Positions 1 to 37,740 of a stretch of DNA of 64,000 bases are shown one piece after another; position 1 is the stretch's first letter, and every line of letters starts with the position of its first letter. The notes beneath the pieces are model-generated. The model searched no databases and was not told where the DNA came from. It saw nothing but the letters and a program-made list of their open reading frames with translations. Location of the stretch: NCBI GenBank assembly GCA_017465505.1, contig JAFTWB010000013.1, positions 1-64,000 of the forward strand. The letters run 5' to 3'. This DNA is from Clostridia bacterium (lineage in GTDB: Bacteria; Bacillota; Clostridia; Oscillospirales; Acutalibacteraceae). Position numbers and translations under genes: made by a program.

Positions 1-209
<209 letters not shown>

Positions 210-32872: not shown

Positions 32873-34819
32873 ATGAAAACATTAAAAGCAAAAAAACTTT
32901 TAGCTTGCTTTATGGCAGTGCTTGTTTTGATGACAAGTCTTTCCATAAGTATTGCCAGTGCAGAAACAGACGGCACATTCAACTACACTGTTTACAACGA
33001 GTATGACGCAGATTTCAACTCCACAAAATGTGCCAGAATCACAGGCTATACAGGCAGCAGCTCTGAGGTAGTTATCCCCGAAGAAATTGCAGGCTATCCT
33101 GTTACAATGATTTACGACAGAGCATTTGCCGAAAATAAGACAATCACTTCTGTTTCAATTCCCGATTCTGTTAAAAGAATCGGTATGGAAGCTTTCCGTG
33201 ATTGCGAAAATCTTTCTGAAATCAACCTGCCCACAGGTCTTGAAGAAATCGGCGGCTATATTCTTATGAACACAGCTTACTCTTTAGACAGTGCAAACTG
33301 GGACGGCGAACTTCTTTACATTAACAATTATCTTTTAATGAGCACTGACCAGGTTACAGGCGACCTTAAGCTCAAGGACGGTACAACTTTTGTTGCTGAT
33401 TTTGCATTCTCCTTCAACAGAACCATCACTTCTGTTACAATTCCTGCAAGCGTAAAGATTATCGGTTCTTATGCTTTCTCTTCTTGTGAAAAGCTCAGCT
33501 CTGTTACATTTAACGAGGGTACTGAGATTATCGGCTTCGGCTCTTTTGAAGGTACTAATCTTTCCGAAGTAACAATTCCTCAGTCAGTAACAACCCTTGA
33601 AGGCTGGGCATTTGCAGATACAAAGCTGGAAAGCATTGACATCAGTGCAAATGTAAAAGACTTGGATGATACTTCTTTTGACGGCTGTACTTCTCTTAAG
33701 AGCATTAACGTTGACGAAAGCAATCCCATATATTACTCAACAGATGGTATCCTCTTTGAAAAATCCAAGTATGATTTTGTGGGCGATTACCTTTTGATTT
33801 ATCCTTCCGCAAAAGAGGGTCACTCCTACACAATCCCCGAAAATGTTGAGTATTTAGGCTACAATGCTTTCTGTGACCTTGTTTATCTCAAGGACTTAAA
33901 TGTTCCTGCAAAGGTTGACATTTTCTCAGGTCTTCACTCCGACACACTTGAAAACATAAACATCGACGAAGCTCACGAGGATTACAAATCCGTTGACGGC
34001 GTTGTTTACTCCAAAGACGGCACTATTCTCATTTGCTTCCCCGGCGGCAAAAATGTTGAAAAATATGAGGTTGCAAGCGCTGTTAAAGAAACAACCATCA
34101 ATGCTGTTACAGGCTGCGTACCTATGAAAGAAATCACCTTCCCCGAGGGCTTTGAAAAGCTTTCAGAGGCAAGCCTTTACTTCTGCGAAAACCTCACAAC
34201 AATCAATCTTCCTTCTACATTGACAGAGGTTGAAGATGATTTCTTCCGTGCCTGTAATGCGGTTACTACCATTAACTTTAACGGCACAAAGGCACAGTGG
34301 GAGGCTTTTGATACTTCCGTTTACTTCCCCTCTTATGAAGAAACCGAGGGTATCTACGTTTACTGCACTGACGGCGAAATTGAGCTTGTAGCTCCTCACT
34401 ATGAGGATGATTTTACTCTTCCCACTGAACCCGAGGTAACTACAACTGCTCCCACAGAGCCCGAAGTAACTACTACAGCTTTTACAGAGCCTCAGGAAAC
34501 AACCACTGTTCCTGCTACCTCTGAAAACAACACAACCGCTCCCACAACCACAACCGAGCCTGAGGAATCTGTAACAACTACCGCTACAGAGCCCAAAGAA
34601 AGCTCAACTGCTCCTGCTGTTGATAAAGAGTTTGAAACAGGCGACGCTAATATGGACGGCAAGTTAAACATCCGTGACGCAACAGCTATCCAGAAGCACC
34701 TTGCAAAGGTTCTTACTCTTGGTGAAGAAGCTCTTGAGCTTGCTGATTTCAACGGCGACGCAAAGGTTAACATCAAGGACGCAACCACAATTCAGAAGAG
34801 AATTGCAGGTATTGTCTGA
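32873..34819 (+). CDS. Secreted leucine-rich-repeat (BspA-type) protein with dockerin
   Basis: A 648-residue protein. Signal peptide of about 30 residues (LLACFMAVLVLMTSLSISIASA). BspA-type LRR_5 repeats run from about residue 60 to 500 (TSVSIPDSVKRIGMEAFRDC, SSVTFNEGTEIIGFGSFEG and others). A T/E/P-rich linker covers about 515-580. A C-terminal type I dockerin has two calcium loops, GDANMDGKLNIRDATAIQKH and ADFNGDAKVNIKDATTIQKR. The dockerin should dock the protein to a cohesin-bearing scaffold outside the cell, where the LRR part may bind protein or host surfaces. AAGGAGG lies 7 nt before the ATG. It is monocistronic with its own promoter. Confidence 0.93.
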   Translation: MKTLKAKKLLACFMAVLVLMTSLSISIASAETDGTFNYTVYNEYDADFNSTKCARITGYTGSSSEVVIPEEIAGYPVTMIYDRAFAENKTITSVSIPDSVKRIGMEAFRDCENLSEINLPTGLEEIGGYILMNTAYSLDSANWDGELLYINNYLLMSTDQVTGDLKLKDGTTFVADFAFSFNRTITSVTIPASVKIIGSYAFSSCEKLSSVTFNEGTEIIGFGSFEGTNLSEVTIPQSVTTLEGWAFADTKLESIDISANVKDLDDTSFDGCTSLKSINVDESNPIYYSTDGILFEKSKYDFVGDYLLIYPSAKEGHSYTIPENVEYLGYNAFCDLVYLKDLNVPAKVDIFSGLHSDTLENINIDEAHEDYKSVDGVVYSKDGTILICFPGGKNVEKYEVASAVKETTINAVTGCVPMKEITFPEGFEKLSEASLYFCENLTTINLPSTLTEVEDDFFRACNAVTTINFNGTKAQWEAFDTSVYFPSYEETEGIYVYCTDGEIELVAPHYEDDFTLPTEPEVTTTAPTEPEVTTTAFTEPQETTTVPATSENNTTAPTTTTEPEESVTTTATEPKESSTAPAVDKEFETGDANMDGKLNIRDATAIQKHLAKVLTLGEEALELADFNGDAKVNIKDATTIQKRIAGIV

Positions 34820-34882
34820 TTTTCATTTTGAATAAAAATTTTTGGCATATATTTTAATTGCCGAAGTATTATACTAAAAAAG

Positions 34883-34922
34883 AAAGAGAAGACTCGCCCA
34901 AAAAGCGAATCTTCTCTTTTCT
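34883..34922 (+). terminator. Terminator of the leucine-rich-repeat dockerin gene
   Basis: AAGAGAAGACTCGC pairs with GCGAATCTTCTCTT, with one mismatch bulge, followed by TTTTCTATTTC. Confidence 0.75.
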
Positions 34923-34937
34923 ATTTCTATGGGTTAG

Positions 34938-34959
34938 CACTCCCAAGCGATTGGGGGTG
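34938..34959 (+). promoter_or_regulatory. Hairpin sequestering the ribosome-binding site of the small peptide
   Basis: CACTCCC (34938-34944) pairs with GGGGGTG (34953-34959) around an 8-nt loop. The right arm is the Shine-Dalgarno sequence of the peptide at 34966. Such occlusion is known in type I toxin mRNAs. Confidence 0.6.
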
Positions 34960-34965
34960 ATATGT

Positions 34966-35037
34966 ATGACTGAGTCGGTAATACTTGTTCTGATACTTGT
35001 TGCACTTGCAGAAGTCATTAAACATATAAAGAGATAA
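34966..35037 (+). CDS. Hydrophobic 23-residue peptide, candidate type I toxin
   Basis: ATG at 34966 and stop TAA at 35035-35037 code for MTESVILVLILVALAEVIKH plus IKR: one membrane helix followed by a basic tail. This is the general shape of Fst/TxpA/holin-like type I toxins, although I cannot match it to a named family. GGGGGTG lies 6 nt upstream but is held in a 7-bp hairpin. A strong promoter facing the other way (35121-35148) would make an RNA antisense to its 3' end. An out-of-frame three-codon reading frame at 34962 overlaps the start. No expression evidence is available. Confidence 0.6.
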   Translation: MTESVILVLILVALAEVIKHIKR

Positions 35038-35063
35038 CCGCCCAACGGCAATTGGACGGTTAT
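35034..35063. terminator. Hairpin at the end of the small-peptide gene
   Basis: ATAACCG (35034-35040) pairs with CGGTTAT (35057-35063), with an inner CCAA/TTGG stem. It could end the peptide mRNA or, more convincingly because CTCTTTAT follows on the minus strand, the antisense RNA. Confidence 0.5.
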
Positions 35064-35114
35064 TGTAATAAAATAAATCATTCATTTGACTAACCGCTTT
35101 GAGCGGTTCCCTGT
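35034..35114 (-). ncRNA. Predicted antisense RNA to the small-peptide mRNA
   Basis: Inferred transcript from the promoter at 35121-35148. It would begin near 35114, contain the hairpin AACCGCTTTGAGCGGTT (35091-35107) and overlap the 3' end of the peptide mRNA as in txpA/RatA or bsrG/SR4 pairs. The 3' end is a guess. Confidence 0.45.
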
Positions 35115-35120
35115 AATCTC

Positions 35121-35148
35121 ATTATATATTATTATTTTTTCTTGTCAA
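35121..35148 (-). promoter_or_regulatory. Promoter facing the small-peptide gene
   Basis: On the minus strand TTGACA (complement at 35143-35148), 16 bp, TATAAT (complement at 35121-35126). It lies just beyond the gyrA terminator and no protein gene follows it, so a short RNA is the likely product. Confidence 0.7.
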
Positions 35149-35154
35149 TATCAT

Positions 35155-35190
35155 AAAAGCTCCCGATTTTTGAAGTCGGGAGCTTTCTTT
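35155..35190 (-). terminator. Terminator of gyrA
   Basis: AAAGCTCCCGA pairs with TCGGGAGCTTT, T-rich on the minus strand, just after the gyrA stop. Confidence 0.85.
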
Positions 35191-35196
35191 TATTTA

Positions 35197-37740
35197 TTAT
35201 TCTGTTGTTTCTGTTACTTCTTCGGCTTCAGGCTCTTCTGATTCACTGTCGCTGGTGTCGGGTACTTCGGTAATTACCTCTGCACTGTCCTCGTGAGGAG
35301 CAGATACAACTGCAACAACCTTGTTGCCCTCTTTAATCTTCATAACAGTAACACCCTTGGAGGGTCTTGCACAAACTCTTACGCTTTCAGCGGCAATTCT
35401 GATAATTACGCCGTCTGCGTTAACCATAATGATGTCTTCATCAAGGTTAATTGTCTTAACTGCGGCAACATCGCCGTATTTCTCGGTATGATAGTTTCTA
35501 AGACCCATACCGCCTCTGGACTGGAGTCTGTAATTATCGGCAGAGGAGATTCGACCAAAGCCTGTTTCGGAAACTGTGAGCACATAAGCGTTTTCTTCCA
35601 GAACAGTAAGGCTTACAACCTCGTCATTTTCCTTAAGCTTAAGTGCCTTAACACCACGGGCAAGTCTGCCCATTGCTCTTACGTCACTTTCGTTAAAGCG
35701 GATGGACATACCCTTACGGGTAGCAATCATAAGCTGTTTATCCCCTGTTGTAACCTGAACACCCACAAGAGAGTCGCCTTCATTAAGGTCAAGTGCAATA
35801 AGACCGCCCTTGCGGTTTGTGTCGTAGGCACTGAGAAGGATTCTCTTGATGATACCCATTTTGGTAACCATATTGAGGTAAAGCTCCTCGGAAAATTCGG
35901 GAATACGCACCATTGCGGTGATTTTTTCATCACCCTCAACAGGAAGAAGGTTAGCAATGTTGATACCCTTGGACTGACGACTTCCTTCGGGAATTTCGTA
36001 GCACTTAAGCCTGTAAACCCTGCCTCTGTCTGAGAAGAAGAGGATGTAGTCGTGGCTGCCTGTGGTAAACATTTCGGTGGCAATATCTTCTTCACGTCTT
36101 GCCATACCTGCCACACCTCTGCCGCCACGGTTCTGAAGCTTATAGGTGTCCACAGTCTGACGCTTGATATAGCCGTAACGGGTGTAAGTAACAACGCACT
36201 CTTCCTTTGGGATAAGGTCTTCAATATCAACCTCGCCACTGATGGCACAAATCTCTGTGCGTCTGGGGTCGTCGTACTTGTTGCGGATAGCAATAGCCTC
36301 TTCCTTAACAATAGCCAGTCGTCTTTCCTCTTTTGCAAGGATATCTATAAAGTCGGCAATCTTAAGTCTGAGCTCTGCGATTTCGTTTTCTATTTTCTCC
36401 CGCTCTAAGCCTGTGAGCTGACGGAGTCTCATCTGAACAATCGCCTGAGCCTGAATATCTGTAAGGCCGTACTTTTCCATAAGATTCTTAACAGCGTCGG
36501 CGGTATCCTTACTTGCCTTAATGGTGGCAATGATGTCGTCGATGTTGTCAAGAGCAATCTTCAAGCCCTCTAAGATGTGCATTCTCTCCTGAGCTTTTTT
36601 TAAATCAAACTGGGTTCTTCTTGTAATAACTTCAACCTGGAAGTCGATGTAATGCTGTAAAATTTCCTTGAGAGTAAGGGTTTTTGGCTCGCCGTTAACA
36701 ATAGCAAGCAGAATTGCACCAAAGGTTGACTGCAAAGCAGTATAGGTGAAAAGCTGATTAAGAACAACCTGAGGAGAAGCGTCACGCTTAACATCAATTT
36801 CGATGTGCATACCGTTTCTGTCGGAGTGGTCCTCAATATTTGAAATACCCTCAATTCTCTTGTCGTTAACAAGGTCGGCAATGTTGGAGATAAGACGTGC
36901 TTTGTTTACCTGATAAGGAAGCTCGGTAACAATAATCTTGAATCTGTTATTCTTAGCCTCAACGATTTCTGTCTTTGCTCTTACTACGATTTTACCCTTA
37001 CCTGTGGCGTAAGCGGCTCTGATTCCGCTTCTGCCCATAACAATACCGCCTGTGGGAAAGTCAGGGCCGGGCAGAACTTCCATAAGCTCTGCTACTTCAG
37101 CCTCGGGATTATCAATAAGCAGACACATAGCGTCGATGGTTTCGCCAAGGTTATGAGGGGGAATATTTGTTGTCATACCAACTGCGATACCGCCCGAGCC
37201 GTTTACCAAGAGGTTTGGAAAACGTGAAGGAAGAACAGTGGGCTCTTCCAGACGGTCATCAAAGTTTGGCTGAAAATCAACTGTGTCCTTGTCAATGTCA
37301 GCGAGCATTTCCGTGGAAATTTTGCTCATTCTTGACTCGGTGTATCGGTAAGCAGCAGGGGGGTCGCCATCCACAGAACCGAAGTTACCGTGGCCGTCCA
37401 CCAGCATATATCTCATAGAGAAATCCTGTGCAAGTCTTACCATTGCGTCATAAACAGAGGCGTCGCCGTGGGGATGATAAGAACCCAGCACCGAACCAAC
37501 TGTATCAGCACATTTACGGTAAGCCTTCTCGGGAGCAAGTCCCTTTTCGTACATTGTGTAAAGAATACGTCTGTGTACAGGCTTAAGGCCGTCCCTTACA
37601 TCAGGAAGAGCACGGGAAACGATAACCGACATTGAGTAGTCAAGGAAGGACTGACGCATTTCACGGTTAACGTCTACATTTATAAGTCTGCCGCCTTTTT
37701 CAGTTTCTTCAATATTCATCATATTTTCATTATCCATCAT
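35197..37740 (-). CDS. gyrA: DNA gyrase subunit A
   Basis: An 847-residue breakage-reunion subunit. The quinolone-resistance region is near the N-terminus ([19 protein letters not shown]), and the catalytic tyrosine lies in the [11 protein letters not shown] context. The C-terminal beta-pinwheel contains the GyrA box QRGGKG-like NRGGRGVAG. An acidic tail ([16 protein letters not shown]) ends the protein. At the position equivalent to E. coli Ser83 there is Ala (residue 94). It lies 17 bp downstream of gyrB in the usual dnaN to gyrA order. AAGGGTGAG precedes the start. Confidence 0.97.

Follow-up and report, generated by a model that had tools for sequence, protein, structure and literature searches.

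A candidate type I toxin-antitoxin locus on a BsrG-like chassis beside gyrA in a Clostridia bacterium, with a toxin gene that has most likely lost its front end

The locus between the dockerin gene and gyrA

The window, that is, the whole stretch of 64,000 nucleotides of Clostridia bacterium DNA analysed here, contains a compact locus between the gene of an LRR_5 and type I dockerin protein (32873-34819, + strand) and gyrA (35197-37740, - strand), where the original prediction had placed it. The peptide gene (34966-35037, +) was recognised by its open reading frame, hydropathy and frame conservation. It encodes a toxin-like product of 23 residues, MTESVILVLILVALAEVIKHIKR, with one hydrophobic segment (approximately residues 4-18) and a basic KHIKR tail; mean hydropathy over 15 residues reaches 2.99. 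The ribosome-binding site lies in a predicted hairpin (34938-34959, +), in which GGGGGTG (34953-34959), with the Shine-Dalgarno (SD) sequence, pairs with CACTCCC (34938-34944) in both the minimum free energy and the centroid fold. This hairpin is conserved in 34 loci. The fold energy of 34925-35135 corresponds to z = -2.88, with 1 of 200 shuffles equally good. On the 5’ side, alignment reveals a remnant of the toxin mRNA leader, GGGTTAGC, at 34931-34938 (+). A terminator hairpin, AGAGAAGACTCG..CGAATCTTCTCT, occupies 34883-34919, the expected place of the leader and the toxin promoter; closely similar copies stand at three other sites of the genome (L007, L008 and L009), in the manner of a dispersed repeat.

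The opposite strand carries the antitoxin promoter, TTGACA-16-TATAAT, which reads from 35148 to 35121 (-) and scores 12/12. A predicted antitoxin RNA of approximately 90 nt would extend over 35023-35114 (-), as judged from the promoter and the terminator. That terminator, a stem with a T-rich tail at 35034-35063 (-), is indicated by wobble counts and alignment. The trailer of the toxin mRNA (35088-35119, +) is the reverse complement of the antitoxin 5’ domain, as seen in the alignment and the pairing energies, and a near-symmetric terminator at 35156-35186, between the locus and gyrA, would end toxin-strand RNA past the trailer. After the antisense promoter, only two mechanically called frames were found, one of 70 aa (35081-34869) and one of 52 aa (35085-34927). 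Both cross the hairpin at 35063-35034, and their start codons are unconserved in the alignment as read by eye, which argues that no protein gene lies downstream of this promoter. The hydrophobic peptide, the ribosome-binding site in a stem and the strong opposite promoter without a protein gene were all present as originally described. Promoter-like sites scoring at least 9/12 are no commoner than in shuffles (4 found, 4.2 expected). At gathering score, the only Rfam match in the whole window is the 16S end; a 16S rRNA gene, truncated by the window edge, has its 5’ part at positions 1-209 (-).

Conservation of the peptide, the folds and the promoters

Relatives with the same layout, a search for which had originally been proposed, were found in the window’s own genome and across the genus and the order. 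This genome (1.9 Mb, 84% complete) has another three toxin frames, located on contigs C8 and C28. Of these, two look like a single tandem copy read from two contig ends, so that there are probably two distinct further copies of the peptide subfamily, both of which carry the leader. Both contigs end inside a tandem array of toxin loci (L022:1-560, L021:2888-3360); their ends seem to share a few hundred bases, apart from small differences, and the repeat therefore probably broke the assembly. In 58 of 150 genus genomes the DNA gave matches at E<=0.01, some of them partial. With the toxin covariance model, under strict filters, matches were obtained in 31 of 60 genomes of the genus (E<=1e-4), in 57 of 300 genomes and 39 of 135 genera of the family (E<=0.01), in 22 of 197 genomes of the order and in 7 of 299 genomes of the phylum (both E<=0.001); all genome tallies count the window’s own genome. 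One scan found an exact pattern in 25 stretches of named genomes, R. bromii ATCC 27255 and 5AMG among them, under titles naming Ruminococcus, Ruminococcaceae, Oscillospiraceae, Anaeromassilibacillus and uncultured Clostridia. With the 223-base region as query, nothing in the phage and plasmid collections reached E<=0.01, and one exact pattern was absent from viral contigs, in a search that diverged relatives could escape.

Among 32 unique sequences, whose pairs are not independent, dN/dS is 0.18 over codons 1-22 (pS>pN in 492 of 496 pairs) and 0.21 over codons 5-19, which omit most codons fixed by the fetching pattern (493 of 496 pairs). By sequence comparison, the peptide frame is a real gene under purifying selection; this range of 0.18-0.21 and the hydropathy together indicate the short hydrophobic peptide of a type I toxin-antitoxin system. 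The original prediction had staked its reading on conservation of the frame in relatives, which is present (dN/dS about 0.2), and the reading stands. In L038, L041 and L043, a one-base change in the 3’ run of A codons alters the frame and lengthens the peptide by 8-13 residues, which suggests loose constraint on the C-terminal tail of the toxin.

The folding strand was judged from departures from Watson-Crick pairing, counted on the toxin strand in alignment A2, which holds 34 of the 38 listed loci and leaves out L022:1-201 (a contig-end copy), L048, L049 and L051. The SD hairpin shows 43 G-T cells against 1 C-A, 34 of the 43 coming from one invariant column, and this excess indicates that the hairpin is kept in the toxin-strand RNA. 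The terminator stem shows 2 G-T against 51 C-A; since such C-A cells are G-U on the opposite strand, this stem appears to be kept in the antisense RNA. Cells altered on both sides number 25 in the two stems, compared with a shuffled mean of 10.0, and 0 of 500 shuffles match. Wobble and compensation thus speak, on comparative grounds, for the existence of both RNAs. The U tract of the antitoxin terminator is the reverse complement of the toxin’s last codons, so that a single stretch has two roles.

Most aligned copies have a toxin mRNA leader, ACAGGGAAGTTAAGGCGGTTAGC, that repeats the trailer in inverted orientation; the trailer doubles as the template of the antitoxin 5’ domain. Across the 34 loci, departures number 23 G-T against 8 C-A in the leader-trailer stem and 21 G-T against 1 C-A in the stem between the leader and the stop-codon region. 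Leader-trailer cells altered on both sides number 11 (shuffled mean 2.5; matched by 0 of 500 shuffles); further pair types in this stem are not beyond chance, being reached by 129 of 500 shuffles. In a comparison over 76 loci, inflated by shared descent as are the pair counts, leaders pair with their own trailers at -39.8 kcal/mol and with swapped ones at -27.1 kcal/mol, and 0 of 10000 permutations were equally good. The same holds in the genus set (35 loci) and in the family and order set (41 loci), with 0 of 5000 each, and in 63 of the 76 loci none of 30 trailer shuffles reaches the own energy. Loci entered this set only with an antisense promoter of 10/12 or better, so that it is uninformative on promoter conservation; it keeps a second L140 frame that is probably no real locus. 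By eye, the leaders and trailers of L048, L051, L081, L104 and L146 diverge considerably yet still match each other. In the predicted folds of two copies from the window’s own genome, the leader-trailer stem closes the molecule around the SD hairpin. Toxin-strand terminators lie within about 110 nt past the antitoxin promoter in 8 of 36 loci, compared with 3.8% of 1800 control windows, and none follows the trailer in the other 28; their placement agrees with a trailer-containing toxin mRNA at some loci.

All 31 scored loci have an antisense promoter of 11/12 or better, and its position hardly varies. This scoring set excluded L043, L048, L049, L051, L053 and L055; in three divergent loci (L048, L051 and L053) the promoter reaches only 10/12. 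Toxin promoters are weak and variable, with at least 10/12 in 8 of 31 loci compared with 2% of shuffles. The antitoxin covariance model matches 35017-35118 at E 1.4e-15, the window locus having been in its training set, and the antitoxin half of the window copy is whole as far as its sequence indicates. The models used 30 of 32 (A3) and 29 of 33 (A4) references; L029 and L043 were omitted from both as near-duplicates, and L053 and L055 from A4. For the antitoxin, these last two had already been set aside on account of divergent trailers. The promoter scores and the terminator wobble argue for an antisense RNA gene that overlaps the toxin mRNA, and the overlap with its 3’ end, as first proposed, is borne out on comparative evidence.

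The front end of the window copy

The window copy retains only GGGTTAGC of the family leader and starts right after the terminator hairpin at 34883-34919. Its leader-trailer energy, -16.4, is the weakest of the 76 loci, and its predicted fold lacks the closing leader-trailer stem and retains the SD hairpin. The best upstream score for a toxin promoter is 8/12, the level of shuffles, and the copy gave no match to Rfam BsrG at E<=1. The antitoxin gene of the window copy is intact, and the toxin next to it has probably been decapitated. With the leader and a convincing promoter lost, its toxin half may be silent; the intact frame and SD hairpin suggest a recent truncation or continued use. The kind of system named in the original prediction, TxpA/BsrG, holds for this locus, but the loss of the 5’ leader and of a convincing toxin promoter had been overlooked.

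It is rather unlikely that the window copy is fully working, with a weak promoter at approximately 34841-34878 and with the hairpin at 34883-34919 acting as a protective 5’ stem-loop of the toxin mRNA and not as a terminator. Several relatives, read by eye, do have a hairpin between promoter and leader, TATTATACT is located just upstream of the window hairpin, and the frame and SD hairpin are intact. Against this, the genome has similar hairpins at three further places, none followed by a toxin frame (by eye), the best promoter is of a strength found in shuffles, and the leader is lost and the closing stem unformed.

A truncated toxin beside a whole antitoxin can also be observed, by eye, in the C28 copy (L112), L176 and L177, which are read as the same decay in a more advanced state. 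The antitoxin of the window has a predicted duplex energy of -161 kcal/mol on its own target and of -79 and -98 kcal/mol on two other copies. Antitoxin-model hits without a toxin-model hit within 60 nt amount to 23 of 71, an upper bound on orphan antitoxins, since a toxin frame is present in L113, L173 and L180 (L180 by eye) and G000:C28:12789 is a contig-end fragment. This comparison used 74 of 76 rows, leaving out the opposite-strand G042:C13:299-377 and G052:C12:28262-28344. A further scan found no promoter in 12 of its 30 loci, and its calls of an absent toxin were accepted only after reading by eye. At L021:1960-2100 (C28 of the same genome, -), an antitoxin gene with a 12/12 promoter stands beside only the tail of a toxin; it is flanked by ORFs that by eye resemble those of a lipoprotein and of a 59-aa Arc-like protein, and an ATPase-like ORF lies further out.

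Family identity, proposed working and known systems

Pfam, NCBIfam, PHROGs and PADLOC assigned the window peptide to no recognised family; a Pfam match to PMP1_2 (E 0.085) was below cut-off and was taken as chance. Neither the window peptide nor the subfamily consensus, MTE..VLLI..EVIK.IKK, matches Hol_Tox (PF16935). The original statement that the peptide family was unrecognised therefore holds for profile libraries, but the peptide belongs to a widespread subfamily. The branch apparently has no name: the family is undescribed in the titles and abstract openings on type I toxin-antitoxin systems, Ruminococcus, Hol_Tox and T1TAdb, which cover the subscription literature thinly, and a text search of PMC6563280 and PMC11264685, both on type I systems, gave no match for Ruminococcus.

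The leader, SD hairpin, stop-codon stem, antisense terminator, trailer and strong antisense promoter are here called the chassis. Hol_Tox is found on the same chassis in other genera, with L098 above the Pfam cut-off (E 2.2e-6), and matches below the cut-off occur on this chassis in L094, L105, L113 and others. In the window’s own genome, L113 (C1:61542) and L115 (C26:57368) have Hol_Tox-like peptides, MYITIQDLFQFSIVIISVITLVITAIKKK and VVTYESLFLFCTLIVTVIGTVVAIIKKK, on the same chassis. Rfam BsrG (RF01412) was matched at the toxin locus and on the toxin strand in 16 of 46 scanned loci, all below the gathering score of 55 bits. The best matches have E 1.5e-7 and 2.8e-7 (44.5 and 43.7 bits), and 13 of the 16 lie above E 0.001. 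By scan, 3 of 6 loci matched at E<=1, and 5 of 20 and 8 of 20 at E<=0.5; the other 30, the window copy included, gave no match at these thresholds. The stems of the BsrG type (closing 5’-3’ stem, leader to post-ORF stem and SD hairpin) are present in relatives with the leader. A THF riboswitch above gathering score was also observed at L103:30-126 (+), upstream of a chassis locus in another genus.

Because the frame, SD hairpin, antisense promoter and antisense terminator are kept as a unit, and because Hol_Tox peptides occur on the same chassis and Rfam BsrG matches below gathering score at related loci, the family appears to be type I of the BsrG/TxpA kind, as originally proposed. It is highly probable that the locus is such a type I toxin-antitoxin member on a BsrG-like chassis, the window copy being most likely decapitated. 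The peptide might instead be a small conserved membrane protein without toxicity, whose expression an antisense RNA tunes, at a locus that is type I-like only in its RNAs; its place outside every recognised toxin family would agree with this, but the Hol_Tox matches of peptides on the same chassis, the sub-gathering BsrG matches of the chassis and the persistence of antitoxin genes after toxin truncation (three cases, by eye) make it improbable. A small non-autonomous mobile element with the leader and trailer as terminal repeats and an incidental ORF would explain the inverted repeats and the copies at unrelated sites, some in tandem and none in the 18 other gyrA 3’ contexts of relatives (about 330 nt each, motif search), but is very unlikely given a conserved antitoxin promoter outside the repeats, a frame under purifying selection and stems that change in a compensated, strand-specific manner.

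For a type I toxin-antitoxin system, the following working is proposed. In copies with the leader, a weak promoter would make the toxin mRNA, whose 5’ leader would fold back on its own 3’ trailer and stop-codon sequence, while the local hairpin would hide the SD sequence. The near-consensus opposite promoter would make an antitoxin RNA of approximately 90-100 nt (predicted), complementary to the toxin mRNA over its 3’ part, which runs from the last codons to the end of the trailer, and RNase III would presumably cut the duplex, as reported for txpA/RatA and bsrG/SR4. Once the antitoxin is exhausted, the peptide would be made, insert in the membrane and presumably be toxic. The window copy would still make the antitoxin, and the toxin at most by read-through of the upstream terminator. 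A tentative and doubtful extension is that an order-wide RNA chassis carries interchangeable membrane peptides, with copies that lack the front end persisting as antitoxins that guard other copies in trans.

Peptide loci of this BsrG/Hol_Tox type, with predicted antisense control, are common, and often multi-copy, in genomes of Ruminococcus and its order, here in a peptide form missed by four profile libraries. The strand-specific count of G-U and C-A cells offers genome-only evidence for two RNAs folded on opposite strands. The window copy seems to capture a stage of decay, in which the front end of the toxin may go first and the antitoxin gene stays.

Several known systems share part of this arrangement. 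In aapA/IsoA and hok/Sok, which belong to a bacterial group other than the present one, the ends of the toxin mRNA also fold together, but the 3’ end itself hides the SD sequence (PMC6733600), whereas here a local hairpin does so, enclosed by the long-range stem. The par/Fst system of pAD1 has convergent toxin and antisense RNAs and an SD sequence in a stem-loop, with direct repeats and a bidirectional terminator (PMC7472228); here the leader and trailer are inverted and the terminator stem belongs to the antisense strand. A par/Fst reading was rejected because the repeats are inverted and because the terminator stem has 51 C-A against 2 G-T on the toxin strand. In txpA/RatA of Bacillus subtilis, as here, an antisense RNA covers the 3’ end of the toxin mRNA and the SD sequence lies in a short stem (PMC3531473, PMC7430163); TxpA, however, has 59 aa compared with 23 aa here and is encoded on a prophage-like element, whereas searches of phage, plasmid and viral collections, within their scope, did not find the present locus.

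Pairing at the 3’ end, an SD sequence in a short stem and involvement of RNase III are described for both bsrG/SR4 and txpA/RatA (PMC6562991, PMC7430163, PMC3531473). In bsrG/SR4 (RF01412) and bsrE/SR5 of Bacillus subtilis, a short hydrophobic toxin, an SD sequence in a local stem and a convergent antisense RNA at the 3’ end are found as in the present family. SR4 and SR5 are longer, with 180 nt and 163 nt (PMC7430163) compared with a predicted 90-100 nt here, and, unlike bsrG and bsrE, the present peptide is not recognised by profiles and the Rfam scores all lie below gathering. The Rfam BsrG consensus agrees in the order of its elements: closing 5’-3’ stem, leader to post-ORF stem, SD hairpin. 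Since the closing stem is the same in that consensus, the leader-trailer stem of the present family is a feature of the BsrG type and no novelty.
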